Assembly: GCF_025643595.1 (NCBI RefSeq)
Contig: NZ_CP102826.1
Location: 4,402,001 to 4,466,000 of the forward strand
Reading direction: 5' to 3'
DNA: 64,000 nt
From: Saccharopolyspora rosea
Lineage (GTDB): Bacteria > Actinomycetota > Actinomycetes > Mycobacteriales > Pseudonocardiaceae
The notes under the pieces are model-generated. The model saw only the letters and a program-made list of their open reading frames with translations. It did no database searches and was not told the origin of the DNA. Of this stretch, positions 15,641 through 58,223 are shown in pieces (positions within the stretch are counted from its first letter, which is position 1; each line of letters starts with the position of its first letter). The position numbers and the translations under genes are program-made.

Positions 15641-16316
15641 CCTGTTGCGCGGCGTCGACGTCCCCGCCGCGCTGCGGGACCTGCGCTCGCGCCCGGTGAA
15701 CTTCACCGACGCGGAGGTCGACACCTCCGGCTGGCACCACGACGTCAGTCGCCGCGCCGTGGCCCACGAGCGTCCAGGGCCTCCCGAACCGGGCGGGCCG
15801 TGGGAGGTCGCCTGCCGGCTGGTGCGCGACTACGAGTTCTCCGACCCCGTGCGCATCCGCGCCGTCTACGACACCCGCGACGGCCTGCTGGGCCGGACCA
15901 TGCTGCTGCAGGGCCGGTTCGGCGGTCTGCGGTTCCACATGGGGGTGCGGGTCACCACGGTCACCGACGAGATCCGCGCCGGGCACCGGGTCTGGGGCTG
16001 GGCCTACGACACCCTGCAGGGCCATCTCGAACGGGGGCGGATGCACTACGAGGTGGTCAAGGACCTGCGATCCGGTGCGGTGGAGTTCGTCGTCTCCGGC
16101 TTCTCGCAGCGCTGCCCCGACCTCGGCCCGCTGCTGCGGGCGGGTTGGTGGCTGTTCGGGCGGCGCACCCAGCTGCGCTTCTACCGGGACTGCGGGCAGC
16201 GCCTGCGGAACCTGGTCCGCGACGCCCGGTCCGGTGCCACGCCGCCCACCGCCGTCCGGGACGGCCCGTTCGTGCTGGCCCCCTCGTGCTTCACCGGAGG
16301 AACTTGTCCAACGTGA
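15633..16316 (+). CDS. DUF1990 family protein
   Basis: 227 residues from GTG 15633. DUF1990 signatures are clear: NFTDAEVD near the N-terminus, LGRTMLLQGRFGGLRFHMGV, WGWAYDTLQGHLERGRMHYE, and LFGRRTQLRFYRDCGQRL at the C-terminus. Function is uncharacterised. It follows the small membrane protein with an 8-nt overlap, and its last 26 nt overlap the 3' end of the convergent molybdenum hydroxylase gene. Confidence 0.82.
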   Translation: MSDLLRGVDVPAALRDLRSRPVNFTDAEVDTSGWHHDVSRRAVAHERPGPPEPGGPWEVACRLVRDYEFSDPVRIRAVYDTRDGLLGRTMLLQGRFGGLRFHMGVRVTTVTDEIRAGHRVWGWAYDTLQGHLERGRMHYEVVKDLRSGAVEFVVSGFSQRCPDLGPLLRAGWWLFGRRTQLRFYRDCGQRLRNLVRDARSGATPPTAVRDGPFVLAPSCFTGGTCPT

Positions 16317-18378
16317 TCGGCAGGTCCCGGACCCGGACGCCCGTCGCGTGGTAGGCCGCGTTGGCGATGGCCGCGGCGGTGCCGACGATGCCCAGTTCAC
16401 CGATCCCCTTGCTGCCGAGCGGGTTGACGTACGGGTCGTCCTCCTCGATCCAGTCCGCGTCGAGCCTGCCGACGTCGGCGTTGGAGGCCACGTGGTACTC
16501 GGCCAGGTCGCGGGTGACGACGTGGCCGAACCTGCGGTCGACGACGCTGTGCTCGTGCAGGGCCATCGACAGCCCCATCGTCATCCCGCCGATCAGCTGG
16601 GAACGCCCGGTCTTGGCGTTGATCATCCGGCCGAGGGCGAACAGCCCGAACAGCCGCGGCACCCGGATCTCCCCGGTGTCGGCGTGCACGTGGACCTCGG
16701 CGAACTGCGCGCCGAAGCTGTGCATGGCCAGCCGCCCGGCGTGCGGGTTCTTCGGCAGCCGCCCGGTCACCTCGACGCCCTCCTCGGGCACCGGTTCCCC
16801 GGCGGGCAGCACTTCGCGCAGGCCGCGGGCCGCGTCGACGATCGCCGAGCCCCAGCAGGTGATGCCGGTGGAACCGCCCGCGCCGGAGGCGTAGGGCAGG
16901 TCGGTGTCGCCGATGCTCAGCGAGACGTCGTCCATCGCCACGCCGAGCGCGTCCGCGGCGATCTGGGTGAGCGCGGTCCACGCGCCGGTGCCGATGTCCG
17001 CCGCGCCGATGAGCACCCGGTACCGCCCGTCCGGCCGGGCCTGGATGGTGGCGCGGGAACCGGGCATCGAGAACACCGGGTAGGTCGACGCGGCCACCCC
17101 GGTGCCGACCAGCCAGCGCCCGTCGCGGTTCGAGCGGGGCGCGGGTGCCCGGTCGTACCAGCCGAAGCGCCGCGCGCCTTCGCGCAGGCAGTCGACGAGG
17201 TGGCGGCTGGAGAACGGCCGCCCGGTGGCCGGGTCGGTGTCCGGTTCGTTGCGGGCGCGGAACTCCACCGGGTCCAGACCGCAGGCGATGGCCATCTCGT
17301 CCATCGCCACTTCCAGTCCGAACATGCCCGGGCACTCGCCGGGCGCCCGCATCCACGTCGGCACCGGCACGTCGAGCCGGGCCAGCCGGTGGGTGGTGCG
17401 CCGGTTCGGCGCGGCGTACATGGTGCGGGTGGGCACCGCGGTCTGCTCGGCGAACTCCTTGATCCGCGAGGTCTGCTCCACCACGTCGTGGCTGATCGCG
17501 GTGAGGTGGCCGCGCGAGTCGCAACCGAGTCGGATGTGCTGGATGGTCCCGGTGCGGTAGCCGACGACGTCGAACATCTGCTGGCGGGTCAGCGCGAGCT
17601 TGACCGGGCGCGGGGACACCAGGCGGGCGGCCATCGCGGTGAGCACGACGTGCGCGTGCGGCAGCCCCTTGGACCCGAACCCGCCGCCGACGTGCGGGCA
17701 CACCACGTGGATCCGCTCGGGGTCCATGCCGAACAGCCCGGAGATCGCGTCGCGCACCCAGTGCACGCCCTGCGTGGAGTCGTGCAGGGTGAGTTCGCCG
17801 TTCTCCCAGCGGGCGATGGTGGCGTGCGGTTCCAGCGGGTTGTTGTGCTCCAGCGGCGTGGTGTAGGTGGCGTCGAGCGTCACGGCGGCGCTGGCCAGGG
17901 CGCCGTCCACGTCGCCCTCGGTGGTGTCGGTGGCGAAACCCCCGTTGACCTCGCCGGGGGTGACCAGGTCCGGGCGGGCGGGGTGCAGGTCGACGTCGTG
18001 CGGGTGCTCCTGGTACTCCACCCGGACCAGGCCCGCCGCGCGCCGCGCCGTCTCGGGTTCCTCGGCCACCACCGCGCCGATGAACTGGCCGCGGAAGGCC
18101 ACGTCGGGCGATTGCAGGATGGCCAGTTCGGCGTCGGAGACGTCGGCCAGGCGCAGCGCGTTCTCGTGCGTGAGCACCGCGACCACGCCCTGCTCGCGCA
18201 GCGCCGCGGACGCGTCGAGCGTCGTGACGCGGCCGAGCGCGATCCGCGCCTGCAACGGGAACAGGTACAGCGGCCGTTCGACGGGGTGCTCGTAGGCGTA
18301 CTGGGCGCGGCCGCGGACCTTGTCCGCCCCGTCGATGCGGTCGATCGGCGCGCCGATCAGCGGTGTCGTGACGGTCAT
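16291..18378 (-). CDS. paoC: Aldehyde oxidoreductase, molybdopterin-binding subunit (PaoC-like)
   Basis: 695 residues, xanthine oxidase family large subunit in its short form. Mo-site motifs include VVCPHVGGGFGSKG, MRAPGECPGMFGLEVAMDE, and the C-terminal NPLGSKGIGELGIVG carrying the catalytic Glu. Final product of a three-gene operon (Fe-S, FAD, Mo subunits) with ATGA overlaps at both junctions, the same order as E. coli paoABC. It should oxidise aldehydes with molybdenum cytosine dinucleotide as cofactor (by family). Only a single-domain XdhC-like gene, far away at 61.6 kb, could be a maturation partner. Confidence 0.88.
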   Translation of the reverse strand: MTVTTPLIGAPIDRIDGADKVRGRAQYAYEHPVERPLYLFPLQARIALGRVTTLDASAALREQGVVAVLTHENALRLADVSDAELAILQSPDVAFRGQFIGAVVAEEPETARRAAGLVRVEYQEHPHDVDLHPARPDLVTPGEVNGGFATDTTEGDVDGALASAAVTLDATYTTPLEHNNPLEPHATIARWENGELTLHDSTQGVHWVRDAISGLFGMDPERIHVVCPHVGGGFGSKGLPHAHVVLTAMAARLVSPRPVKLALTRQQMFDVVGYRTGTIQHIRLGCDSRGHLTAISHDVVEQTSRIKEFAEQTAVPTRTMYAAPNRRTTHRLARLDVPVPTWMRAPGECPGMFGLEVAMDEMAIACGLDPVEFRARNEPDTDPATGRPFSSRHLVDCLREGARRFGWYDRAPAPRSNRDGRWLVGTGVAASTYPVFSMPGSRATIQARPDGRYRVLIGAADIGTGAWTALTQIAADALGVAMDDVSLSIGDTDLPYASGAGGSTGITCWGSAIVDAARGLREVLPAGEPVPEEGVEVTGRLPKNPHAGRLAMHSFGAQFAEVHVHADTGEIRVPRLFGLFALGRMINAKTGRSQLIGGMTMGLSMALHEHSVVDRRFGHVVTRDLAEYHVASNADVGRLDADWIEEDDPYVNPLGSKGIGELGIVGTAAAIANAAYHATGVRVRDLPITLDKFLR

Positions 18379-19364
18379 CGCGGCACCCCCGCCAGCTCGG
18401 CGAGCACGGCGACGACCATGTTGCGCACCAGCGGCACCTTGAACTCGTTGCCCGGCAACGGTCTCGCGTCGGCGAGCTCGGCCTCCGCGGCGTCGTGGAA
18501 CACCGCGAGGTCGGCGGCCGCGCCGCGCAGCACCTCCTCGGCCCGCGCGGCCCGCCACGGCTTGTGCGCGACCCCGCCCAGCGCGAGCCGGACGTCGCGC
18601 ACCCGCCCGTCGGCGACGTCGACGGCCGCGGCGACCGATACCAGCGCGAAGGCGTAGGACGCGCGGTCCCGGGCCTTGCGGTAGCGGGAGTTGCGGGCGA
18701 ACTCCAGCGCGGGCAGGTCGACGGCGGTGATCAGTTCGCCGTGTTCGAGCACGGTGTCCCGTTCGGGTTCGTCGCCGGGCAGCCGGTGCAGGTCCACCAG
18801 CGGGATCCGCCGTTCGCCGTGCGGTCCCTTGGTGTGCACGACGGCGTCGAGCGCGGCCATCGCCACGGCCATGTCCGACGGGTGGGTCGCCACGCACGCC
18901 TGCGAGGCGCCGAGGATCGCGTGTTCGCGGTGGAACCCCTCGCGCGCCGGGCAGCCGGTGCCGGGTTCGCGCTTGTTGCAGGGCGTGGTGACGTCCTGGA
19001 AGTACACGCACCGGGTGCGCTGCAACAGGTTCCCGCCGGTGGTGGCGAGGTTGCGCAGCTGTCCGGACGCGCCGGCGAGCACCGCCTGCGACAGCACCGG
19101 GTAGCCGCGCCGGACGAGCGGGTCGGCGGCCAGCGCGCTGTTGGTGACGGCCGCGCCGATGCGCACCCCGCCGTCGGGGAGGGTCTCCACGCGGTCGGAA
19201 GTGAGCTGCCGGACGTCCACCAGCACGTCCGGTGCGCTGACCTCCAGCTTCATCAGGTCCACCAGGTTCGTCCCGCCGGCCAGGAAGGCGCCGTTGGGGG
19301 ACTCGGCCAGGGTGGACACCGCGGCGTCGGCGTCGTCGACGTGCTGGTAGCGGAACGGCCTCAT
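18375..19364 (-). CDS. paoB: Aldehyde oxidoreductase, FAD-binding subunit (PaoB-like)
   Basis: 329 residues. FLAGGTNLVDLMK and ATTGGNLLQRTRC are FAD-binding motifs. The insertion CVYFQDVTTPCNKREPGTGC supplies clustered cysteines as in PaoB/YagS, whose FAD subunit carries an extra [4Fe-4S] cluster not found in most xanthine dehydrogenases. This is the best evidence that the enzyme is PaoABC-like. Start and stop codons overlap both neighbours (ATGA). It passes electrons from the Fe-S clusters to FAD and then to an acceptor. Confidence 0.88.
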   Translation of the reverse strand: MRPFRYQHVDDADAAVSTLAESPNGAFLAGGTNLVDLMKLEVSAPDVLVDVRQLTSDRVETLPDGGVRIGAAVTNSALAADPLVRRGYPVLSQAVLAGASGQLRNLATTGGNLLQRTRCVYFQDVTTPCNKREPGTGCPAREGFHREHAILGASQACVATHPSDMAVAMAALDAVVHTKGPHGERRIPLVDLHRLPGDEPERDTVLEHGELITAVDLPALEFARNSRYRKARDRASYAFALVSVAAAVDVADGRVRDVRLALGGVAHKPWRAARAEEVLRGAAADLAVFHDAAEAELADARPLPGNEFKVPLVRNMVVAVLAELAGVPR

Positions 19365-19855
19365 CGCTGCACGACCTCCGCGATCGCCGGGACGATGTTG
19401 GCGTAAGCGCCGCAGCGGCACAGGTTTCCGCTCATCCGCTCGCGGATCTCCTCGTCCATCCCGCCGCCCTCGTCGGTGGCCGCGCTCGGCCAGCCCTCGC
19501 GCATCTCGTCCAGCGCGCCGACCGCGGAGACGACCTGGCCGGGCGTGCAGTAGCCGCACTGGAACGCGTCGTGCTCGACGAAGGAGCGCTGCACCGGGTG
19601 CGGCTCGCCGTCCTCGACGAGTCCGTCGGCGGTCGTGATCCGCGCCCCGTCGAACGCGACCGCGAGCATCAGGCAGCTGTTCACCCGCCGCCCGTCGGCG
19701 AGCACCGTGCAGGCCCCGCACTGCCCGTGGTCGCAGCCCTTCTTCGGACTGGTGATCCCGAGCCGCTCGCGCAGCGCGTCGAGCACGGTGGTGCGCGTGT
19801 CGACGGTGAGCCGGTGAGCCGTTCCGTCGACGGTGAGCGTGATCTCGGCTTCCAC
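19361..19855 (-). CDS. paoA: Aldehyde oxidoreductase, 2Fe-2S subunit (PaoA-like)
   Basis: 164 residues. N-terminal plant-type ferredoxin domain with KKGCDHGQCGACTVLADG and a fourth Cys at NSCLML; C-terminal helical domain with FQCGYCTPGQ and GNLCRCGAYANIV for the second [2Fe-2S] cluster. No Tat signal is seen at the N-terminus, unlike E. coli PaoA, so a cytoplasmic location is more likely. First gene of the operon; GGAGG precedes the start. Confidence 0.9.
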   Translation of the reverse strand: MEAEITLTVDGTAHRLTVDTRTTVLDALRERLGITSPKKGCDHGQCGACTVLADGRRVNSCLMLAVAFDGARITTADGLVEDGEPHPVQRSFVEHDAFQCGYCTPGQVVSAVGALDEMREGWPSAATDEGGGMDEEIRERMSGNLCRCGAYANIVPAIAEVVQR

Positions 19856-19918
19856 GGTGTCCTCCCTCGCCGGCCCGCACGGTGCTACCGGGCCAGAGTT
19901 ACCCGGCTGCCCGCCGCG

Positions 19919-20302
19919 TCACGCCCCCCGCGCCTCGTTCGCTCCGGGCTCCTCACCGGCGTCGGTGAGTTCCTGCTCGGCGCGCTCGTCGACGGCGTCG
20001 TCGAGTTCGTGCATGCGGGTCTCGGCCAGCGGAGGCGGGATCTCCTCGGGTTCGTCGGGGCGCTCCCCGGCGAGGTACTCGTCGACGCCACCGCCCTCGC
20101 GCTGCTCGCGGGGCGTGGGCCGGTCGGCGGTCACCGGCGACCAGTGCTCCGGTGGTTCCACCCCGCGCTCCAGCGGGTCGGTGCCGAGCTCGTCCTCGTC
20201 GAGGCTCTCCGCTCCCTGCAGGTTCGCCGGGTCCTCCGGGGACTCCGGGTCGGGGCCGACCTCGTCGGCGGAGGGAGTGTTGGCGTCGAACGGATCGGAC
20301 AT
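19919..20302 (-). CDS. DUF5709-like acidic protein
   Basis: 127 residues, rich in Asp, Glu and Pro with no hydrophobic core, so probably largely disordered. The block DPLERGVEPPEHW followed by VDEYLAGERPDEPEE fits DUF5709, a family of small acidic actinobacterial proteins of unknown function. GGAGGAACG precedes the ATG. No operon partner. Confidence 0.7.
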   Translation of the reverse strand: MSDPFDANTPSADEVGPDPESPEDPANLQGAESLDEDELGTDPLERGVEPPEHWSPVTADRPTPREQREGGGVDEYLAGERPDEPEEIPPPLAETRMHELDDAVDERAEQELTDAGEEPGANEARGA

Positions 20303-20712
20303 GCTCGTTCCTCCTTCCGCCCGTCGGCTACCCGCCGCCACGGCGGCTAACCACCACCATGCGGAAAGTGACTACCTGTCCACGGATCCGGTTCCGAGAG
20401 GGTCGCCGGCGAGCCGCGTTCCCTGTCGGGAGGGGGCTTGTCGCAACCTGCACCGCCGCGGGTTGCTCCGACGGTGGCAGCGGTGCGCAGTGCGCCTGCT
20501 TGATGGCCGGAAGCGCGGGGCGGCCGCAACCTCCATCGAGCCCGTGGCGCCTTCGAGGTGGGGACGTTTTCCTCTGTGCAACACCGTCTTGCAGGTGTCT
20601 CGTGAACCCGCGAGACGCGAAGGGCGTTGATGTCCGCGGCAGCCTTCGTTGCTGATGAACTTGCCGTTGCGGCGCATGGATGTTGCCGGCAAGCCGGGTT
20701 CAGGTGAACACC
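20303..20712. other. Intergenic, repeat fragment only
   Basis: About 410 bp without a credible gene. The only feature is a short fragment of the dispersed repeat at 20446-20476. GC content begins to drop here, marking the left edge of the compositionally distinct operon that follows. Confidence 0.5.
20446..20476 (+). repeat. Degenerate internal fragment of the dispersed repeat
   Basis: CGCAACCTGCACCGCCGCGG followed by GTT and CTCCGACG matches the middle module of copies 3 and 12 (AACCTGCACCGCCGCGGGTT, then CTCCGAC). No left or right inverted repeat remains nearby. Confidence 0.6.
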
Positions 20713-20994
20713 ATGAACAGCATATTCGTCCCCTCTCTCGTGCTTTGGGGCCTGATGTGGCTGGCCTTCGGCGCCGCTCTCGGTGTCACGGTCGGCGTGG
20801 CCTGGCGGCTCACGCGACGTCTGGCTGGGCACGCGAAGTCACGTCGGCCGCAGCAGGCTCGGCTGGCCGCTGCGGCGCAGCGCGCCGCACCATTCCCACC
20901 CGGGACGGCGGCTCCGACGGCCAACTGGGAAACATCACCGGCGGAGCCGCGTCGGGTCCGCCGCCACCTGCAGAGCCGAACTCACGGACCGTGA
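20713..20994 (+). CDS. Short single-pass membrane protein (unknown operon, gene 1)
   Basis: 93 residues from ATG 20713 (AGGTGA just upstream; ATG 20680 is also in frame). A hydrophobic segment at residues ~8-30 (LVLWGLMWLAFGAALGVTVG) is followed by an Arg/Lys-rich stretch, so the C-terminus is predicted to be cytoplasmic. The rest is Ala/Arg/Pro-rich. Its stop overlaps the GTG at 20991 and lies 6 nt before the ATG at 21000 of the next gene. I recognise no family. First gene of a three-gene operon. Confidence 0.6.
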   Translation: MNSIFVPSLVLWGLMWLAFGAALGVTVGVAWRLTRRLAGHAKSRRPQQARLAAAAQRAAPFPPGTAAPTANWETSPAEPRRVRRHLQSRTHGP

Positions 20995-20999
20995 ACGGC

Positions 21000-22454
21000 A
21001 TGAACATCCACGTATGGCTGGCCCGCCCCCATCCAGGTCACCAGCGTCCGGAGGAGCCGGTGCACGTGGGTAGCGGAAGGTCCGTTCCCAAGCGGGTGCG
21101 CTGGCTGTGGTTGCGCACGGCCGCGCTTGCGATGTTTTTCGCGGGTATCGCACTGTGCGGCGCACCCTGGGCTTACGCCAGCACTCCGAATCCGAACCCG
21201 CCGAATCCGCCGCCGGCAGGCGGCAGCCAGTCGCCGGGCAACAGCGATTCGTCCGGAAACACTGGTTCCTCCGGCAACAACAATACGCCCAGCAACAATA
21301 CGCCGGGCAATAACAGCACGCCGGGCAACAACAATACGACCAACAACAACGCACCGGGCAGCAACAACACGCCCAACAACAACGTGCCCGGTAACAGCAA
21401 CGGACCCAGCAACAACACGCCCGGCAACAACAACGCACCCGGAAACGTGTCGGGTAATAACAACACACCCGGAAACGTGCCCGGCAATAACAATGCGCCC
21501 AACAATACCCCGGGCAGCAACAACACGTCCGACAACAACAGTACGCCCAACAACAACACGCCGAACAACAGCAATACGCCCAACAACAACACATCACGCA
21601 ACAACGCCCCACCGCCCGGCAACAACACCCCGAACACCCCGCCACCCGGCAATAACACCCCGCCATCCGGCAGCAACCCACAGCCGTCGGGGAATACCGT
21701 TACCGGAGGCATCAGTGACCTGGTGGCCGCGGGCGCAGCGGCCGCAGGAGGCATCGGCGGCTTTGCCGCCACCCGACCTCGCGCGACGGGCAAGGATGAC
21801 GACGACGCCGCCAAGCAAGCGACACCGGGTGGTAATGATCCGGATCGTCCCGACGGCGCGCCGCTCGACCGTCCGTTGATGGATGCCGCTACCGCAAAGC
21901 TGGCAAGGGCTGTCGAAGACTTCAACCAGACGTGTGAGGCATACGGCCAAGCACGTCGGAATGAAACGCTCGCCGAGCGGGCTGTCGCGAACGCGGACGC
22001 CAGGATCGAAGAAATACAGGCACAATGGAAAGCCGCCAACGACAACGTCGCCCAGAATTTCAGAACGAACTACATCAGAGCCCAGCGGGCAGGACCTCTG
22101 AATTCGACGTCGTTGACGATGCTTTGCTCGTACCTGCTCATGATCGCTTCGCCACCCGCCGGGATGGCGGGACAAGTTATCGCAAGGCTGGCGATCTTGG
22201 GACTTGGAGCGACCACCTACACGTCGGCCGCCGACCCGAAGACCTGGAACGAACAGGCGGACAAGCTGATTCAAATCGAGTACAACAAAATCGAGGCCGA
22301 GTATCTTGAAAAGCTGAAAGCCGCGTGGAAAGACGCGGCAGACGCTCGTGCGCAACAAGCGAACGCCGAAAGCTCGGCGGGCGAACTCGGTGTTCAGCTG
22401 GTCAGGATTCGAGCCGCCAACCATCTTGATCTGAAGTGCAGGTATGAATCGTGA
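21000..22454 (+). CDS. Asn/Pro/Thr-repeat exported protein (unknown operon, gene 2)
   Basis: 484 residues. Residues ~36-60 form a positively charged, hydrophobic export signal or anchor (LWLRTAALAMFFAGIALCG, then AYA before STPNP). Residues ~80-230 are low-complexity repeats of NNNTPGNN/NNTPNNNAPG type. A Gly/Ala-rich hydrophobic stretch (LVAAGAAAAGGIGG) at ~241-254 could be a second membrane segment. Residues ~290-350 and ~415-465 are predicted helical or coiled-coil around a hydrophobic part at ~371-405. GC content is clearly lower than the neighbours. The layout suggests a wall-spanning stalk joining two structured ends, but no family is recognised. Start could also be GTG 20991. Confidence 0.65.
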   Translation: MNIHVWLARPHPGHQRPEEPVHVGSGRSVPKRVRWLWLRTAALAMFFAGIALCGAPWAYASTPNPNPPNPPPAGGSQSPGNSDSSGNTGSSGNNNTPSNNTPGNNSTPGNNNTTNNNAPGSNNTPNNNVPGNSNGPSNNTPGNNNAPGNVSGNNNTPGNVPGNNNAPNNTPGSNNTSDNNSTPNNNTPNNSNTPNNNTSRNNAPPPGNNTPNTPPPGNNTPPSGSNPQPSGNTVTGGISDLVAAGAAAAGGIGGFAATRPRATGKDDDDAAKQATPGGNDPDRPDGAPLDRPLMDAATAKLARAVEDFNQTCEAYGQARRNETLAERAVANADARIEEIQAQWKAANDNVAQNFRTNYIRAQRAGPLNSTSLTMLCSYLLMIASPPAGMAGQVIARLAILGLGATTYTSAADPKTWNEQADKLIQIEYNKIEAEYLEKLKAAWKDAADARAQQANAESSAGELGVQLVRIRAANHLDLKCRYES

Positions 22455-23368
22455 TGGATACGACAGCGTTCGAGCGGTGGCTGTCATGTCTCGATGTCAG
22501 CGTTGAGCGACGCCGCCATGGCGAGACCGAAGAGCTGCATATCGGAAAACCCGGCGGGACGCATCCCCTCGTCGTGCTCAAGACCGAGGATGGTCGAGAG
22601 TCCGGCGAACGCGGCAACACATGGTGGGCGATTCACGAACGAGTGATTCCGCGATCGGCCGTCGAGGAAAACTGGCGCATAGTCGGCGAACCTCGGTCTT
22701 CCGTTGGAAATCTCTCCCGAATCGTCACCGAATTCGCGACAGGATTTCCCTTGGTCGATTGCGAAGTCCGTCCCAGCGCGAATGGTGACGTGGTGGTCGT
22801 CATCCGTGCTCCGTTGTTCCTGGAGGACCTGGCCGCTCAAGCGTTCTTGCTCACGGTGTCCGCCGTGTTGAAGGCAGCCGAGGCGCTTGACGTGCTTGAA
22901 GCGCGGAAGGCGGAGGAAGTCCGAGTGTGGGCTGATCTCCAGTCATTGTCCGAGAAGAGAGCCGCGGAACAGCGCGATCGGATCAGGCAGGTGATGGCGG
23001 CGTCAACGCAAGCGCCGTTCGATGCGCCCGGCGCCGACAGCGCGATTTCCACGCACAGCGACTGGCCGGAACCGCCCGGGATTCCCGGCCAGCAGGCAAC
23101 GCGGGCTCGTCCGGACGCGACGTCTCAGGGCCCGGATGTGGATACCGAGACTCCCGTTTTCGCCGTTCCCCCCGGCGGGATGCATGCCTGGGCGATGCCC
23201 GACCGGAGCCAGGAGTGCAGCGCCACCTTGCCCGGAGGCGTGCAGCTGCGGGTCCTTGAACGTCGGGGAAGGTGGGCCCACGTGCGGTCCGGAAAGTGGT
23301 CGGGATGGGTTGAGGGCCGTCAGCTGGAAAGGGTCAGCGCGGATGAGACCGACCGTTGGGGCGAGTAG
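22454..23368 (+). CDS. YbjN-like/SH3-like protein (unknown operon, gene 3)
   Basis: 304 residues, ATG overlapping the previous stop (TGATG). The N-terminal ~150 residues resemble the YbjN/type III chaperone-like fold: an alpha/beta domain ending in a long amphipathic helix (FLEDLAAQAFLLTVSAVLKA). A charged coiled stretch and Pro-rich linker follow. The last ~55 residues (SATLPGGVQLRVLERRGRWA, then WSGWVEGRQLERV) look like a bacterial SH3 domain of the kind that binds peptidoglycan or peptides. There is no signal peptide. Both domain calls are pattern-based. Confidence 0.6.
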   Translation: MDTTAFERWLSCLDVSVERRRHGETEELHIGKPGGTHPLVVLKTEDGRESGERGNTWWAIHERVIPRSAVEENWRIVGEPRSSVGNLSRIVTEFATGFPLVDCEVRPSANGDVVVVIRAPLFLEDLAAQAFLLTVSAVLKAAEALDVLEARKAEEVRVWADLQSLSEKRAAEQRDRIRQVMAASTQAPFDAPGADSAISTHSDWPEPPGIPGQQATRARPDATSQGPDVDTETPVFAVPPGGMHAWAMPDRSQECSATLPGGVQLRVLERRGRWAHVRSGKWSGWVEGRQLERVSADETDRWGE

Positions 23369-23420
23369 GTAGCTCCCGGCCACTCCCGCCACGCGGCTGT
23401 TTCCACGAGTGCGGGCAGTA

Positions 23421-24290
23421 TCAGGTGCCGGATCGTGCGAGGCCGGCCCACGGGTCGGGTTTCTGCGCCAGCCTGCGGGCCATGTTCGCCAGGCCGTAGG
23501 TCCCCGGCTCGACGCGGCCGAGTTCGGCCGGGTCGATCGGCGTGGCGGCCGGCGCGCCGGGGCGGGCGCGCAGCGAGTAGGGCGCGATCATCGTCTGCCC
23601 GTAGGCGTTGCGGTTGGTGTCCAGGAAGATCCGGTCGCCGCGCTTGTCCTTGCGCTGTTCGGTGGTGAACCGCTCGGGTTCGTCGTGCACGGCGTGGTCG
23701 GCCAGTTCCCGCACCGCGGCGCGCACGTCGTCGAAGCCCCGCCTGCCCGCCAGCGGCGCGACGACGTGGAAGCCCTTGCTCCCGGTGGTCTGCACGTGCG
23801 GGGTGAGCCCGGCGTCGCGGAAGCGCGCGCAGACCGACCGCACGGCCGCGCGCAGTTCGGCGATCCGCTCCCCCGCCGGCGGGTCGAGGTCCACGACCGC
23901 CACCACCGGCCTGTCCAGATCGTCCACCAGGGACAGTCCGATGTGGAATTCCAGGCAGCCCAGGTTGGCCAGGTAGAGCAGCGTCGCGGCGTCGTCGACG
24001 ACGGCGTGGTGCACCGCGCCCGACGCGCCGCGTTGCGGCACCGACACCACGCGCAGCCAGTCCGGGAAGTAGTCCGCCGCCTCCTTCTGGAAGAACCCGT
24101 CGGCTTCCACGCCGTCCGGGAAGCGGCGCATCGTCAGCGGCCTGCCACGGGTGTGCGGCACCATCGCGTCGGCGACCGACCGGAAGTACTCCACCACGTC
24201 CCGCTTGGTGTACCCCTCGCCCGGGTACAGCACCTTGTCGCCGTGCGAGATCTCGATGGTCCGGCCCGCGACGTCCACCGTCGTGGTCAT
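23421..24290 (-). CDS. ligD: LigD-type primase-polymerase (PolDom), stand-alone
   Basis: 289 residues matching the polymerase domain of bacterial NHEJ ligase LigD: KVLYPGEGYTKRDVVEYF at the N-terminus, VVDLDPP with the metal-binding Asp pair, and TTGSKGFHVVAPL for nucleotide binding. It fills in or adds (ribo)nucleotides at double-strand-break ends. It is a separate gene here, with its ATG overlapping the stop of the phosphoesterase gene (TGATG), instead of fused to a ligase. No ligase or Ku gene is in the window. Confidence 0.9.
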   Translation of the reverse strand: MTTTVDVAGRTIEISHGDKVLYPGEGYTKRDVVEYFRSVADAMVPHTRGRPLTMRRFPDGVEADGFFQKEAADYFPDWLRVVSVPQRGASGAVHHAVVDDAATLLYLANLGCLEFHIGLSLVDDLDRPVVAVVDLDPPAGERIAELRAAVRSVCARFRDAGLTPHVQTTGSKGFHVVAPLAGRRGFDDVRAAVRELADHAVHDEPERFTTEQRKDKRGDRIFLDTNRNAYGQTMIAPYSLRARPGAPAATPIDPAELGRVEPGTYGLANMARRLAQKPDPWAGLARSGT

Positions 24291-24874
24291 CAGCGGCCTC
24301 CACCGGATTCCAGGTCGGCGTTGGTCCGGCCGGTCAGCACCGACTCGGGCTGGGTGCTGACCGGGTTGCGCCGCCGGTCGGCGCCCTCGTCGTCGACCTT
24401 GACCAGCAGCCACTGCTCCTGCCCGCGGAACCGGGTGCGGGTCAGCGCGAACGCGCCGCGCAGCTTGCTGCCCTCCAGCCAGAACTTGACGTGCCCGGCG
24501 TCGAGCCCGTCGGCCATGTCCACCGGCTCGCCCTTGCGCTCGGTGAGGTTGCGGTAGTCGCCGCTGTCCCACACCACGACCGTGCCCGCGCCGTAGCCTT
24601 CCGGGATCTCGCCCTCGAAGTCGGCGTAGTCCAGCGGGTGGTCCTCGGTGGGTGTGGCCAGCCGCTTCTGCCGGGGGTCCAGCGACGGCCCCTTGGGCAC
24701 CGCCCACGACTTGAGCACGTCCCCGACCTCCAGCCGGAAGTCGTAGTGCAGGCTGGACGCGTCGTGCTTCTGCACGACGAACCGCGGCTGCTCCCCGGGC
24801 TCGCCGCCGGCCGGTTCGCCGGACCGATCCAGATCCCGCTTGCGCCGGTAGTCGGCCAATTCGTCCTTCGCCAT
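24290..24874 (-). CDS. LigD-type 3'-phosphoesterase, stand-alone
   Basis: 194 residues. FVVQKHDASSLHYDFRLEV with WAVPKGPSLDP is the diagnostic core of the LigD 3'-phosphoesterase domain; His and Asp of the first motif bind the catalytic Mn. It trims 3'-phosphate or 3'-ribonucleotide ends during break repair. It is coupled to the polymerase gene by a 1-nt overlap. The N-terminal 30 residues are charged and probably disordered. Confidence 0.9.
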   Translation of the reverse strand: MAKDELADYRRKRDLDRSGEPAGGEPGEQPRFVVQKHDASSLHYDFRLEVGDVLKSWAVPKGPSLDPRQKRLATPTEDHPLDYADFEGEIPEGYGAGTVVVWDSGDYRNLTERKGEPVDMADGLDAGHVKFWLEGSKLRGAFALTRTRFRGQEQWLLVKVDDEGADRRRNPVSTQPESVLTGRTNADLESGGGR

Positions 24875-24913
24875 GCCCGTCGCGTACCCGCCACCGCGCC
24901 CGGCGCAACACGC

Positions 24914-25495
24914 CTACTCGCGTCGGCCCGGCCAGCCCTTGCGCACCGGCCACGGCCGCTGGTCGAACCAGGTTCCGGTCTCACCGGTGTCGCCGGGCCT
25001 CGCGGCGGGACGCTCGGGTTCCCCGCGTTCGGGTTCCCGGCGTTCCGGTTCCGGCGCGGGCACCGGCTCCGCGGGCTCGGGCGCGCCCTCGGGCGGTGCG
25101 GAGGGCACCGGCACGGTCACCGGCGCGGTCCGCGGCCCTTCGGGCAGCGGCGGCAGCTGGTCGATGACGCCCTCGTCGAGCAGCCCCTGGTAGATCCGCC
25201 TGACCCGGAGCCGGGCGTCCGCGACCGCCCGCTGGACCACGCCGGTGATCGCCTTCGCCAGCCCGGCGGCGGGCGCTTGCCGGGCCCGGGCGGCCAGTTC
25301 GAGGTCCAGCAGCACGCCGTCGCGGTCGACCGTGGCCCGGAGCAGGCCGTCGGTGGACGACGCGGTCCCCCGCACGGCCGCGGCTTCCCGCCCGGCCCAT
25401 TCCAGCGCCTGGTGCTTGCGGTTGATCGTCTCCTCTAGGTGTTCGGCGTCCGCGAGCAGCCGCGCCGCCTTGGCGTCCAGGTCCTCGGGTGGCAC
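24914..25495 (-). CDS. YbaB/EbfC-family nucleoid-associated-type protein
   Basis: 193 residues from a GTG start. Residues ~1-100 have the YbaB/EbfC pattern: an N-terminal coiled coil (LADAEHLEETINRKHQ), a short beta hairpin (LLRATVDRDGVLLDLEL) and a C-terminal helix (ITGVVQRAVADARLRV). A Pro/Glu-rich tail of ~70 residues follows. This variant is frequent next to WXG/EspC-type genes in Pseudonocardiales. It is the last gene of the three-gene cassette, 7 nt after the preceding gene. A DNA-binding role is family inference only. Confidence 0.78.
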   Translation of the reverse strand: MPPEDLDAKAARLLADAEHLEETINRKHQALEWAGREAAAVRGTASSTDGLLRATVDRDGVLLDLELAARARQAPAAGLAKAITGVVQRAVADARLRVRRIYQGLLDEGVIDQLPPLPEGPRTAPVTVPVPSAPPEGAPEPAEPVPAPEPERREPERGEPERPAARPGDTGETGTWFDQRPWPVRKGWPGRRE

Positions 25496-25502
25496 GCGTC
25501 GA

Positions 25503-26774
25503 TCACTGCTCTTCGTAGGCGTCGGGTTTGCGCTGCGGGGGCAGCGAACCCTTGATGAAGCCGTCCCACATGTTCTCGCCCCGCCGGTCCGCGGGATCGC
25601 GGATGTAGTGGTCGCGTTGGCGGTCGTGGTCCTTCTCCGGTACGCCGACGAGCTCGCTGCGGTCCGCGCGGTCGATCGTGCCCTGCGGCTGGTCGTCGCG
25701 CTTGAACTCCTCGGGGTCGAACTTGTCGTCCAAGACCACGGCCGGCCGTTCGACCCGCACCCCCGGCTCGCGCTTCCTCGGGTCGCCCCCGGTCACGCCG
25801 GTCAGGTTCTTCCCGGTCAGCGACTTCGTGACGGAGTACAGGGTGTCCTTGAGCTTCTCGGCCGCGGTTTCCGCGTCCTGCACGATCTTCTCCAGGTTGT
25901 GCGCCGCGTGGACGACGGCCTCACCCTTGGTCTTGGCCCCGATCATCAGCGGCGCCGCACTGGTCCCGACGTTCTTGAGCGCGTCACCGAACGCGAGTCC
26001 AGCCTGCGCGGTCGCCGCCGCCCGCGTCGCCTCCGTCGCCGTCGCCGCGGCGACCCCCAGACCGCTGCACGCGACACCGGCCGTGGCGAGCGCGCTGAGG
26101 ACGGTGACGGTGACCTTCTTGTCGGTCTCCTCCTTCTTCTCGAAGGCCTTCTTCGCCCGGGCGAAGACGTCCATCACGTCGCTGCGCAGCGCCAGCACCG
26201 CCGACTTGTACTTGTTGACGGCGACCCATGCCGCCGCCAGGCTGCCGTGGTACTTCGCCAGCGACATGCTCAGGTCGTTGAGGAACGTGATCCGGAAGTT
26301 GTCGGCGGCATTGCCCTCCCAGTGGACGAGGCTGTCCTTCATCCGGTTGATCCGGTCCTGGTAGCGGGCGTTGATGTCGACCGCCGGGTTCGAACCGTCC
26401 ATTCCGGACGCGGTCATGCCGTTGCCGCGCACGGCGACCTTGGACAGCGCGTCCAGGAACTCCCCGGCGGCCTCCAGGTCCCCGGAGAGGAGTTCGTGGT
26501 GCAGCAGGCTTTCCAGCTTGTCGTCGATCTCGTGCCAGCGGTTGAGCACGTCGTCCGAGGCGCCCATCCCGCCCGACCGGTCGATCGGTTTGCCCACCTC
26601 GGGCTTCTCGTTGACGCGGCTGGCTCTGGGATCGTTCGGCTCCGGGGCGGTGTGCGAGCCGTCGTCACCGTCCGAGAGGTAGGCCACGCCGACGTCGCTC
26701 CAGACGAGGCGCAGCGCGCGGCTGTAGTGCGCGCAGTGCTTGGCCCAGTCCTCGTTCTTCGTGATTCCCGTCAT
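25503..26774 (-). CDS. WXG/T7SS-type helical protein
   Basis: 423 residues. A helical N-terminal part contains HWEGNAADNFRITF, the Trp-x-Gly hairpin plus Phe seen in WXG100/PPE-type secretion substrates. A hydrophobic Ala-rich central stretch (VLSALATAGVACSGLGVAAA) may insert in a membrane. The C-terminal third is charged and ends MWDGFIKGSLPP. ATGA overlap with the EspC-like gene upstream. It is probably a type VII secretion substrate or a toxin-like carrier with its partner; no ESX core gene (EccC, EccD) is in the window, and no toxin domain is recognised. Confidence 0.7.
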   Translation of the reverse strand: MTGITKNEDWAKHCAHYSRALRLVWSDVGVAYLSDGDDGSHTAPEPNDPRASRVNEKPEVGKPIDRSGGMGASDDVLNRWHEIDDKLESLLHHELLSGDLEAAGEFLDALSKVAVRGNGMTASGMDGSNPAVDINARYQDRINRMKDSLVHWEGNAADNFRITFLNDLSMSLAKYHGSLAAAWVAVNKYKSAVLALRSDVMDVFARAKKAFEKKEETDKKVTVTVLSALATAGVACSGLGVAAATATEATRAAATAQAGLAFGDALKNVGTSAAPLMIGAKTKGEAVVHAAHNLEKIVQDAETAAEKLKDTLYSVTKSLTGKNLTGVTGGDPRKREPGVRVERPAVVLDDKFDPEEFKRDDQPQGTIDRADRSELVGVPEKDHDRQRDHYIRDPADRRGENMWDGFIKGSLPPQRKPDAYEEQ

Positions 26775-27094
26775 GGTTGTCCGTGCCCCCGCAGCCAGTC
26801 GGCGATTTCCTTGTCGTCGGCGTCGTAGCGCTGGGCGATCTGCATGAGCGCCTGCGCGGCCAGGTGCACGTTCTCCTTGTTGTCGGCGAGCACCCGTTCC
26901 AGGTAGTACCGCGTGTCGGACCAGTACGGCTCGATGCTCCGGAACACGTCGCCCCCGCCGCGGAACAGGTCGATGTCCTCGTCGACCTTGCGCAGCTTCG
27001 CCAGGCTCTCGTCCATATCACCAGCGAGCCCTTCCAGGTGCTGGTAAGCGGCTTTCCACAGCTCGGTGGCGTCCGCCTGGAATCCTTCAGCCAT
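26771..27094 (-). CDS. EspC/WXG100-like small helical protein
   Basis: 107 residues, wholly helical. MAEGFQADATELWKAAYQHL at the N-terminus fits the DUF2580/EspC-like families, which form helical-hairpin partners of larger T7SS substrates. ATGA overlap with the downstream 423-residue WXG-type gene implies co-folding partners. First gene of the cassette (EspC-like, WXG-type, YbaB-like). Confidence 0.7.
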   Translation of the reverse strand: MAEGFQADATELWKAAYQHLEGLAGDMDESLAKLRKVDEDIDLFRGGGDVFRSIEPYWSDTRYYLERVLADNKENVHLAAQALMQIAQRYDADDKEIADWLRGHGQP

Positions 27095-27240
27095 GTCCGC
27101 TCCCGTCGTCGATCCGGCCGATCCGCGACGTGGAGAAGCCCCGTCTCGCACCGCCCCGCATCGCTGGTGGGACGACGACGCTAGGCGCCGACGAGGAGCC
27201 TCGAAGCGGAACAACCGGACGCCACTCGAATGGAGCAGCG

Positions 27241-27293
27241 CCGCCGATGCCGAGCTCCCGCCGCGCAAAAGGAGTTCGAGGACAGGCCCTGAG
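27241..27293 (+). repeat. Dispersed repeat, degenerate right end
   Basis: CCGCGCAAAAGGAGTTCGAG then GACAGGCCCTGAG matches the right terminus of the repeat (GCAAAACGAGTTCGAAGACAGG then CTCTGAG) with several changes. It lies between the divergent EspC-like gene and the small ORF at 27402. Confidence 0.65.
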
Positions 27294-27401
27294 CCGCACT
27301 TCCACCCCCACTGGGACGATCGGGTGATCTTGGGAACGGTTACCGGCCGGTTCTGGTCCGATCGAAGGAGGAACCGAGCGGACACAGGAGAGGGCCTGCC
27401 C

Positions 27402-27620
27402 ATGCACCAACACGTGCACGCCGAGCTCGTCGGCGGTCCCGAGGACGGCCGGTCGTTCGTCCTCCCCGCCGTGGAGGCCGACATGCCGGTGGACCGGTTC
27501 ACGCTGCCCGCGCCCCGCGAGAGCGCGGCACCCTGCGCCCGCTACGCGCTCAGCGACCGGCGAGCCGACGGCGTGTGGCGCTACCGCTACGCCGGGGAGC
27601 AGCCGTTGGCCACCTCCTGA
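27402..27620 (+). CDS. Small conserved hypothetical protein, 72 aa
   Basis: Starts at ATG 27402 after AGGAGAGG. VHAELVGGPEDGRSFVLPAV is the conserved opening of a small actinobacterial family, and the C-terminus WRYRYAGEQ ends the usual fold. No function is known. A strong hairpin terminator begins at the nucleotide after its stop codon. Confidence 0.7.
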   Translation: MHQHVHAELVGGPEDGRSFVLPAVEADMPVDRFTLPAPRESAAPCARYALSDRRADGVWRYRYAGEQPLATS

Positions 27621-27649
27621 CCCGGCGTGACCACCGCGGTCACGCCGGG
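27621..27649. terminator. Hairpin terminator
   Basis: CCCGGCGTGACC-ACCGC-GGTCACGCCGGG: a perfect 12-bp stem with a 5-nt loop, starting right after the stop codon of the 72-aa gene. No U-tract, as is common for actinobacterial terminators. Confidence 0.75.
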
Positions 27650-27731
27650 GTGCGCGGATCGGTCCTGCCGATCACCCGCGCAGTTACTTAGCATGGGTAA
27701 CGAATACGGGACGCGCAGCGCAGGAGGGACC

Positions 27732-29216
27732 GTGTCGCTCACCGAACGCATCACGGCGGCGATCGCCGAGCCGGCCACCGACGACGGGTTCGACCCGCAC
27801 GCCGAACTCGCCGAGGTCCTCGCCGGGGTGGGGCTGGAGCCCGCGGACTCCGGTGGCCGGATCGAGTTCCGCGGCGCCGACCCGGTGGTGCCGAGCCCGC
27901 TGCGGCTCGGCGGCGCGTCCGCGATCGCGCTGGTCGCCAAGTCCGTCGCGATGGCCCGGCTGTGGCGGCTGCGGGGCGGCGACGGCCAGGACATCTCGGT
28001 CGACCTGCGGGTCACCCCGCACCGGCTGTGCCCGTTCTACGACCGCCGGTGGGAACTGCTCAACGGCTATCCGGCGGGCAGCCCGGCCAACCCGAGCCAG
28101 GCGCTCGGCTTCACGTTCCACCGCACCGCCGACGACCGGTGGGTGATGCCGCTCAACCCGTACCCGAAGCTCAAGATCGGCGCGCAGAAGCTGCTCGGCG
28201 TGCCCGACGACCACGAGGCGGTCGCCCGCGCGGTCGCCGGGTGGAAGGCCCGCGACCTGGAGGAGGCCGGTGAGCGCGCCGGTGTGGTGATGCCCATGCT
28301 GCGCACCCCCGAGGAGCTGCTCGCCGAGCCCCAGTACCGCGACTTCCTCGCCCACGCGCCGCTCATCGAGATCACCAAGATCGGCGACAGCGAACCCGAA
28401 CCGTTGCCGAGGAGCGCGAACGCGCCGCTGGACGGTGTCCGGGCCCTGGGCATGGGCCACGTGATCGCCGGAGCCGGTGCGGGTCGCGCGCTCGCGCTGC
28501 ACGGCGCCGACGTGCTCAACCTGTGGCGGCCGAACGAACTCGAACACGACACGACCTACCTCACCGCCAACGTCGGCACCCGCTCGGCCACCGTCGACCC
28601 GCGCCGGGGCGAGGGGCCCGCGCTGATCCGGCGGCTGCTCTCCGGAGCCGACGTGTTCTACGCCAACCGGCGGCCCGGTTACCTCGACTCCATCGGCCTG
28701 TCCCCGGAGGAGGCCGCCGCGACCCGGCCGGGCATCGTGCACGTGACCGCGTCGTTCAACGGGCCGACCGGCCCGTGGGCCGGCCGCGTCGGCTTCGACC
28801 AGTCGGCGGGCAGCGTGGTCGGCATGATGAACCTGGAAGGTGGCGGCGACACCCCCGCCCTGCCGCCGATCCTGGTCGTCAACGACTACATCGTGTCCTG
28901 GCTGATGACCGTCGGCGCCGTGCAGGCGCTGATCCGCCGCGCCACCGAGGGCGGCAGCTACCGCGTGCACGTGTCGCTGACCAGGGCGGCGCTGTGGATC
29001 CTGAGCATGGGGATCTTCGACCGCGACTACGCGCACGAGATCGCCGGAACCGGCGGGGAGCACGCCTACCTGGACCCGGAGACGTTCACCGCCGACACCC
29101 CGCTCGGCCGGTACCAGGGCGTCACCGACCAGGTGCGGATGAGCGCCACCCCCGGCGAGTACCGCCAGGTCCTGGTGCCGCGCGGGGCGAGCCGCCCCGA
29201 GTGGCTCGACCGGTGA
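27732..29216 (+). CDS. CaiB/BaiF-type CoA-transferase (family III)
   Basis: 494 residues from GTG 27732, chosen because AGGAGGG precedes it at proper spacing; ATG 27693 would add 13 residues without a site. Family III landmarks include LDGVRALGMGHVIAGAGAGR (CoA-binding Rossmann part), ADVLNLWRP and GFDQSAGSVVGMM, whose Asp is the expected catalytic residue. The N-terminal ~200 residues form a degenerate first half, as in fused two-domain members. Transfers CoA between organic acids; substrate unknown. Confidence 0.85.
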   Translation: MSLTERITAAIAEPATDDGFDPHAELAEVLAGVGLEPADSGGRIEFRGADPVVPSPLRLGGASAIALVAKSVAMARLWRLRGGDGQDISVDLRVTPHRLCPFYDRRWELLNGYPAGSPANPSQALGFTFHRTADDRWVMPLNPYPKLKIGAQKLLGVPDDHEAVARAVAGWKARDLEEAGERAGVVMPMLRTPEELLAEPQYRDFLAHAPLIEITKIGDSEPEPLPRSANAPLDGVRALGMGHVIAGAGAGRALALHGADVLNLWRPNELEHDTTYLTANVGTRSATVDPRRGEGPALIRRLLSGADVFYANRRPGYLDSIGLSPEEAAATRPGIVHVTASFNGPTGPWAGRVGFDQSAGSVVGMMNLEGGGDTPALPPILVVNDYIVSWLMTVGAVQALIRRATEGGSYRVHVSLTRAALWILSMGIFDRDYAHEIAGTGGEHAYLDPETFTADTPLGRYQGVTDQVRMSATPGEYRQVLVPRGASRPEWLDR

Positions 29217-52320: not shown

Positions 52321-52376
52321 GCCCCGGCCCCGCGGTTCACGCGGAACCGCAGGGCGTCCGGTCTCTTGAGTGAGTG

Positions 52377-52586
52377 CCTGTCTTCGAACCTGGTTCCGAC
52401 AGGACGTGGTAAGCGGCGACAGCCGCTTTCTCTTTCGGTGAGCGGCCTCGCCACTTGCACCGCCGCGGGTTCTCCGACAAGCACAGCGGCGCGTCAGCGC
52501 CTCCGTGGGGGGCGGTGGCCGGGCGACGGGCGAGCCGCTGAGTTTCCGCCACCGGCACCGCCACCCAAAACGAGTTCAACGACAGG
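52377..52586 (+). repeat. Dispersed MITE-like repeat, copy 12
   Basis: CCTGTCTTCGAACCTGG left end, hairpin AAGCGGC-GACA-GCCGCTT (52411-52428) plus TCTCTTT, middle modules with the GCGTCAGCGCCTCCGTGGGG block, right end GAGTTCAACGACAGG. It lies between the convergent amidohydrolase and carboxylase genes and stops 3 nt before the stop codon of the latter. Confidence 0.87.
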
Positions 52587-57893: not shown

Positions 57894-58223
57894 CCTGTCT
57901 TTGAACTTGGTTCCGGCGGGGCGTGGTAAGCGGCGGTAGCCGCTTTCTCTTTCGGTGAGCGGTCTCGCCACTTGCACCGCCGCGGGTTCTCCGATGAGCA
58001 CAGGGGCGCGTCAGCGCCTCCTTGGGGGGCGGTGGTCGGGCGACGGGCGGGCGTCTCGCGAGGACAGCCCCGACGCCGTGTATTGGGCATACATCAGGAG
58101 GGGCTCCCGGAGCCGATGTGACTGCGGCGCGCAGCGCCTCCGTGGGGGGTGGTGGTCGGGTGACGGGCGGGCCGCTGAGGTTCCGCTCCCGGCACCGCCA
58201 CGCACAACGAGTTCAAAGACAGG
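57894..58223 (+). repeat. Dispersed MITE-like repeat, copy 13 (longest single copy)
   Basis: CCTGTCTTTGAACTTGG to GTTCAAAGACAGG, 330 bp. Hairpin AAGCGGC-GGTA-GCCGCTT (57928-57945) plus TCTCTTT. It contains every module seen elsewhere, with the GCGCAGCGCCTCCGTGGGG-type block present twice. It lies between the tandem TetR and glutamine-synthetase-like genes. Confidence 0.87.

Follow-up and report, generated by a model that had tools for sequence, protein, structure and literature searches.

In a stretch of 64,000 nucleotides from Saccharopolyspora rosea (contig NZ_CP102826.1, positions 4,402,001 to 4,466,000 of the forward strand; the window, below), three small genes that we call g1, g2 and g3 lie close together and point the same way, from 20713 to 23368. 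We argue that they form a rare, acquired accessory unit in which g3, a protein with the predicted fold of the YbjN family and of the class I chaperones of type III secretion, serves its own membrane surface protein, g2, and we would put the chance that this is right at about one half. The block is uncommon, a variant on a fold that is already known. If we are right, a fold for which few clients outside secretion are known gains a genetically coupled candidate client, and the block would illustrate a mobile unit for a surface protein in which the exposed part changes and the handling partner is kept; if we are wrong, what is left is an orphan operon, itself rare, and a single fold assignment. 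How did such a block arrive, and what might one of its proteins be doing for the other?

Layout and origin of the block

A sequence-only reading of this DNA had proposed a three-gene operon, and the arrangement is indeed operon-like. The first gene runs from ATG 20713 to TGA 20994, with AGGTGA 5 nt upstream of its start; g2 may begin either at GTG 20991, in a GTGA overlap with the g1 stop, or at ATG 21000 (484 amino acids from there), and it stops at TGA 22454; and g3, which may begin at ATG 22454 (304 amino acids) or at GTG 22451 and ends at 23368, overlaps that stop in the letters TGATG (22452–22456). A search of the block for promoters of the sigma-70 type found none, and no RNA element matched Rfam at its gathering cut-offs. 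Terminator-like sites are in excess (13, with 3.5 expected). Every one lies on the minus strand, most of them within the repeat region described below, and we take the excess to be a by-product of the repeats.

That the block was acquired horizontally seems well supported, both by its codon composition and by its absence from related genomes. The GC content at third codon positions (GC3) is 0.745 in g1, 0.732 in g2 and 0.721 in g3, against 0.90–0.95 in the nearby genes for LigD polymerase, LigD phosphoesterase, an iron–sulfur (FeS) protein, a 127-amino-acid protein and a YbaB-like protein; the open reading frames (ORFs) at 25503 and 26771 stand at 0.936 and 0.875, and three distant ORFs (49917, 62112 and 43942; frames unvetted) at 0.78–0.81. 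Total GC had been described as lower than in all flanking genes, and this is true of g2 (0.614) and g3 (0.646), the lowest value among the measured flanking ORFs being 0.649 (26771–27058), but not of g1 (0.709).

The LigD phosphoesterase is matched in all 22 genomes of the genus sample, closely (72–100% identity) in S. rosea itself and ten others, and those ten congeners with a close LigD locus are our comparison. At that locus, g1, the C-terminus of g2 and g3 have no match at E ≤ 1e-3 in any of the ten. From the stop of the LigD polymerase to the start of the FeS gene is 41–578 bp in all ten congeners and about 3.57 kb here; the gene for the 127-amino-acid protein starts 5 nt after the polymerase stop in five of them, 20 nt after it in one, and 3,118 bp from it here. 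(That gene has no tblastn match in G005 and G012; in G004 and G009 the start finder did not place its start, and tblastn puts it beside the polymerase.) Since the block is missing from all ten and the spacing there is short, about 3.1 kb appears to have been added in S. rosea, inserted in the opposite orientation between co-directional neighbors and filled for the most part by g1–g3. Loss in all ten congeners would be a less simple explanation.

A scan of 20200–23600 for repeats of at least 14 nt found no direct-repeat pair at the two edges of the added segment, and one 15-nt, 87% inverted pair near both edges (20331–20345 and 23538–23552) may be chance. A repeat fragment at the left edge had been offered as a further sign of acquisition. 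The fragment is real, with further copies in the window at about 52369–52515 and 57931–58032, but the repeat has at least 32 matches in its own genome including itself (30 of 178 candidates scored), and short matches to its core occur in 17 of 21 other genus members. With 31 other matches at home it is a genome-wide element, and it is therefore no evidence of acquisition. It looks like a dispersed repeat of the repetitive extragenic palindromic (REP) kind; as single-stranded DNA, this copy folds no more strongly than its shuffles (z 0.93).

The stalk protein, its neighbor g3 and their relatives

The topology of g2 was read from Kyte–Doolittle (KD) hydropathy only. A hydrophobic, signal-like segment (residues 36–54, KD 1.67) precedes 167 residues (62–228) that hold 61 Asn, 34 Pro, 20 Gly, 20 Ser and 19 Thr and in which Tandem Repeats Finder (TRF) reports tandem periods of 15, 18, 21, 30, 33 and 51 nt; a signal-like segment with a low-complexity stalk agrees with the sequence-only reading. 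An Ala/Gly-rich hydrophobic segment follows at residues 238–256 (KD 1.37). Together these might give the layout of a type I membrane protein (export signal, ectodomain, transmembrane segment, cytosolic tail), the second transmembrane segment being borderline.

In an AlphaFold2 model, the last 190 or so residues of g2 form two helices of about 70 residues around a hydrophobic hairpin. Confidence, given for blocks of residues as the predicted local distance difference test (pLDDT), is 76–90 in helix 1 (model residues 61–133) up to residue 120 and then 64 and 50; 36–50 in the hairpin (139–172), where hydropathy peaks at 1.2–1.37; and 63–88 in helix 2 (183–253). The alignment behind the model has two rows, which may be unrelated. 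Structure matches from Foldseek and VIA are generic helical proteins (p85 iSH2, YscO, FliJ, Rad50, SMC; best Z 10.2) and fall below the level trusted for helical models, and no output-domain or toxin family in Pfam, NCBIfam or PADLOC exceeds its cut-off, a PIN_5 match standing at E 0.075 and 12.9 bits against 27. The small protein g1, with a hydrophobic segment at residues 9–27 (KD 2.0), a basic tail, sub-threshold matches only in Pfam and NCBIfam and none in PADLOC, may be an accessory membrane protein.

The structural case for g3 is stronger. Its AlphaFold2 model, also built on a two-row alignment, has block pLDDT values of 62–77 over residues 1–60, 83–90 over 61–120, 69 over 121–130 and 84–94 over 131–180, with a poor C-terminal third. 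The YbjN/class I chaperone fold runs as a helix, antiparallel strands, a helix, two strands and a C-terminal helix; the predicted elements of the g3 N-terminal domain come in the order H-E-E-E-E-H-H-E-E-H (H, helix; E, strand), and residues 1–155 fit the helix and strand order of solved members of the superfamily, residues 1–60 being modeled less well. Foldseek ranks an uncharacterized archaeal protein first and YbjN, AmyR, DR1245 and the chaperone VecA at 2–11 (probability 0.99–1.00 at ranks 1–10; best E 1.2e-3). Of the first 25 rows in VIA (Z 11.9–7.4), 23 belong to YbjN, AmyR, DR1245 or type III chaperones and their complexes, and row 26 falls off to 5.9; the DR1245 row (4h5b) has a root-mean-square deviation of 9.7, and the other two rows are 3cxj, the same protein as the first Foldseek match, and 8q8o, by its title a biofilm operon regulator. 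As modeled, then, residues 1–155 of g3 have the YbjN/class I type III chaperone fold, as the sequence-only reading had supposed. Sequence profiles do not see it: Pfam up to E 1 gives only SH3 families and no YbjN, type III chaperone or TY-Chap family, NCBIfam and PADLOC give nothing, and a search of Protein Data Bank (PDB) sequences with a g3 profile (A1) gives nothing either. We therefore place g3 as a relative by fold and not as a member of any of these families.

A final helix of 58 residues (128–185) leads out of the domain, and beyond it lies a part that had been read as SH3-like. Here the matches are weak but concordant: three sub-threshold Pfam SH3 profiles (SH3_4 at 18.3 bits, cut-off 24.1), a solved SH3 chain, 2ekh (phmmer E 0.0016), and the SH3 domain of ABL2 (E 0.05). 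A stretch in the congener G012 is 40–44% identical to it and itself scores below threshold (SH3_4 22.3 bits; 2ekh E 0.58). No profile passes its cut-off, the model is not confident, and the domain is weakly supported. The G012 stretch belongs to a 331-amino-acid protein (L002:889–1884, minus strand) that joins an SH3-like domain of the g3 type to GQYGPP repeats and hydrophobic segments.

The pair has a similarly arranged counterpart at a second locus. In G198, a genome of the same family and another genus, a protein matches g3 residues 55–181 (29% identity, E 4.3e-12; 24 standard deviations above shuffles, none of 500 scoring as high). It lacks the SH3 part and matches no family up to E 1, and its start overlaps, in ATGA, the stop of a gene for a 666-amino-acid protein. 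That protein has, in order, an N-terminal hydrophobic segment (KD 2.44), an unassigned outer region, HYR and PKD stretches below cut-off, a proline linker, a transmembrane-like segment (KD 2.07) and a charged tail with few Pro and Gly residues; no hairpin segment in it rises above KD 1.2. What recurs is thus not a conserved triplet, which the sequence-only reading would have favored, but the g2–g3 arrangement in one other genome: no counterpart of g1 was recognized among the listed reading frames upstream of the pair, and no sequence similarity was detected between g2 and the 666-amino-acid protein in outer or inner parts. The G198 pair probably sits in an integrated element, though with less certainty than applies to the S. 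rosea insertion. It lies about 4.3 kb from a tRNA-Pro (in the region L014:11991–12373, with an integrase remnant), beside which a fragment matches the end of a phage integrase profile (E 0.0024, below cut-off). On an automatic list of unvetted frames, GC3 is 0.65–0.79 from about 3.2 kb of the locus to the tRNA, and outside it is often 0.87–0.95 and sometimes as low as inside. A check for an empty site found the flanking gene in none of three genomes.

How rare is all this? The searched samples share genomes, and several had only some of their candidates scored, so that the counts are lower bounds. With g3 as query, matches came from 3 of 61 relatives (G000, G012 and G032) and from 12 of 390 family genomes at E ≤ 0.01; we take G000 and G198 to carry the chaperone domain, and G012 to share no more than the SH3 part. 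Loci L006, L008 and L010 were judged chance from their reading frames, and the weak rows L003, L007, L009, L011, L012 and L013 lay outside inspection. Profile A1 found 2 of 397 order genomes (its own and G015, E 0.007), and profile A3 found its own alone in 394 class genomes and 5 of 180 family genomes; we judged G015 (the same place in both searches, assessed from its frames), G389, G242 and G244 to be chance. The G198 relative of g3 found 2 genomes in its 80-genome genus sample, itself and G221 (E 5e-4), the latter chance by its frames. Viral contigs, plasmids and phages held no relatives, nor did two scans of a genome-contig collection, which did not return G198 either and may not include it. 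The SH3 part was matched in 4 of the 61 relatives, of which G050 and G008, at E about 1e-3 and with internal stops, lay outside inspection. The g2 C-terminus was matched in 6 of 390 family genomes, at E 1.5e-4 or worse outside its own locus; L018, L019, L020 and L024 were judged chance or other genes, and L021, L022 and L023 lay outside inspection. The loci L004, L015, L016, L084 and L090 carry little or no weight in these results. Across the sampled sets, then, only two genomes, as a lower bound, appear to carry the g3 chaperone domain convincingly, and a literature search at the level of titles and abstract beginnings found no description of such a pair.

Readings of the pair

In PMC5398634 the chaperone fold is said to bind unfolded or extended chains or helices, complexes being reported only for the type III chaperones. 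Because of the fold, this mode of binding and the overlap of the two genes in two unrelated places, we infer that g3 is a dedicated cytosolic partner of g2. The stalk would stand outside the cell, the second hydrophobic segment would anchor it and the helical part would lie in the cytosol, where g3, probably a dimer as in AmyR, might bind that helical part or the hydrophobic hairpin and keep the helical part soluble and correctly placed. Alternatively, its target could be the N-terminus of g2 before export. Once bound, g3 might stay on as an adaptor and form additional contacts through its long helix and SH3-like domain. A swap of the outer part with the partner kept would allow different lineages to carry different surface stalks on one handling system. 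That these genes could be a secretion module, as once suggested, is not borne out: g2 may be anchored and not released, and for AmyR, a protein of the YbjN family, evidence of a role in secretion is reported to be lacking (PMC5398634).

A bolder view, speculative and in our judgment rather unlikely, takes both loci as members of a class of mobile surface-display units in actinobacteria. Each would retain a dedicated chaperone-fold protein (YbjN/type III) to handle a transmembrane protein that changes fast, both in its outer region (an Asn-rich stalk here, PKD/HYR-like stretches in G198) and even in its inner helical sequence. The type III chaperone fold would then be at work without type III secretion.

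Several observations weigh against our preferred reading, in which g3 serves g2, and should be set down together. The pair is found in two genomes only, so the linkage rests on one comparison. The C-termini of the two g2 proteins align at a BLASTP E of 1.3; 278 of 500 shuffles score as high in a local alignment and 121 of 500 in a global one. With no similarity between them, the two proteins may have come to the same layout by convergence or coincidence. Hydropathy reaches KD 1.68 inside the predicted soluble domain of g3, above the 1.37 of the second g2 segment, which makes that segment only a possible transmembrane one and the anchor uncertain. Heptad periodicity is not significant in the g2 helices, which are equaled by 113 and 266 of their 500 shuffles, and we therefore call them long helices and not coiled coils; nor is it significant in the long helix of g3 (268 of 500) or in most G198 segments (31, 161 and 365 of 500). 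The modeled strands of the SH3-like part have a pLDDT of about 42, and the G198 pair, at GC 0.647, differs little from the 0.67 of the stretches beside it.

What else could the pair be? One might see a signaling unit, with g2 as a transmembrane sensor that relays a signal from the surface through its helical part to g3, and g3 as an adaptor that recruits other proteins by its long helix and SH3-like domain and does no folding. The ectodomain–transmembrane–helical layout in both genomes and the additional SH3-like domain would suit this, as would the description of AmyR, in PMC5398634, as a regulator acting through protein–protein contacts; yet neither g2 nor g3 has an output domain above cut-off in Pfam, NCBIfam or PADLOC, the Asn-rich stalk is of low complexity with no recognized binding domain, and the G198 relative of g3 does without the SH3 part. 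We consider this improbable, if somewhat less so than the two readings that follow.

The whole arrangement might also be an accident, in which an orphan YbjN-fold protein has, in each of two acquired regions, landed behind a membrane protein gene that is unrelated. The g2 proteins have no detectable similarity, and there are just two loci, both acquired-looking; but a stop/start overlap in both loci, with the same order and a similarly unusual layout, makes coincidence an unlikely account. Least probable, in our judgment, is a chaperone–effector pair. Here g2 would be released whole or would be membrane-active, its hairpin inserting into the membrane of a target, while inside the producer g3 would keep g2 inactive. 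In favor of this are the chaperone fold of g3 and, in the adjacent g2, a signal-like segment and two long helices that enclose a hydrophobic hairpin; a cluster with YbaB-like and WXG100-sized genes lies about 1.5 kb away. However, the pair of hydrophobic segments ahead of the helices points, if weakly, to anchoring, G198 has no hairpin segment above KD 1.2, g2 finds only generic helical bundles in structure searches, and no toxin family exceeds its cut-off.

Table 1. Features of the block and of the added segment (positions in the window)
Feature	Position	Strand	Basis
Added segment, without counterpart in ten congeners	20303..23420	.	3,118 bp, 127-aa gene start to LigD-polymerase stop
Dispersed-repeat copy, palindromic core GCAACC...GGTTGC at 20443–20466	about 20407..20510	+	genome-wide repeat search
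g1, 93 aa, one hydrophobic segment, basic tail	20713..20994	+	reading frame, hydropathy
g2, probable membrane-anchored surface protein	21000..22454	+	reading frame, hydropathy; alternative start GTG 20991
g2 residues 36–54, signal peptide or N-terminal transmembrane segment	21105..21161	+	KD 1.67
g2 residues 62–228, Asn/Pro/Gly/Ser/Thr low-complexity stalk	21183..21683	+	composition, TRF
g2 residues 238–256, possible second transmembrane segment, Ala/Gly-rich, borderline	21711..21767	+	KD 1.37
g2 long helix 1, putatively cytosolic	21870..22088	+	AlphaFold2 model residues 61–133
g2 hydrophobic helical hairpin between long helices	22104..22205	+	AlphaFold2 model residues 139–172, low confidence
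g2 long helix 2	22236..22448	+	AlphaFold2 model residues 183–253
g3, predicted YbjN/type III chaperone fold and SH3-like C-terminus	22454..23368	+	AlphaFold2, Foldseek, VIA
g3 residues 1–155, predicted YbjN/class I type III chaperone fold	22454..22918	+	AlphaFold2, Foldseek, VIA; G198 relative
g3 residues 128–185, long helix leaving the domain	22835..23008	+	AlphaFold2
g3 residues 232–297, SH3-like domain	23147..23344	+	weak profile and sequence matches; AlphaFold2 strands of low pLDDT

Two groups of neighbors on the minus strand complete the picture. The 127-amino-acid protein (19919–20302) is acidic, has no Pfam match and adjoins the LigD polymerase in 8 of the 10 congeners, and it is a possible companion of the LigD locus. 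At 24914–27058 three genes may make up a substrate cluster of the type VII kind. They encode the YbaB-like protein, which scores 26.0 bits in Pfam (cut-off 25.5), a 423-amino-acid protein without a Pfam match at E 0.1 and a helical protein of 95 amino acids that has the size of WXG100 proteins but does not match their family.

Known systems with the same fold

Genes for type III secretion chaperones often adjoin those of their clients. With the class I chaperones (CesT, SycH, SycE, AvrPphF ORF1 and VecA; VIA Z 10.0–7.4), g3 shares its fold and, likewise, a place next to a putative client gene; unlike theirs, that putative client bears a signal-like segment of its own. No type III apparatus gene was recognized among the frames of 16000–28000, and no genome-wide search for an injectisome was made. 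In Pfam, whose library presumably includes the TY-Chap models, g3 has no TY-Chap family and g1–g3 have no family that processes ADP-ribose. That separates the block from the ADP-ribose conflict systems, whose TY-Chap1, TY-Chap2 and TY-Chap3 are proposed as domains of the same chaperone superfamily in gene clusters outside type III secretion (PMC9503650). A further comparison is with the YbjN family itself (YbjN of Escherichia coli, 6vu7; AmyR of Erwinia, 5fr7 and 5frk; DR1245 of Deinococcus, 4h5b), which has the same fold as the N-terminal domain of g3. Identity in the structure alignments is 9–14%, and Pfam lists no YbjN family for g3; and to the shared domain g3 adds a helix of 58 residues and an SH3-like domain, in a gene that overlaps the gene of a membrane protein.

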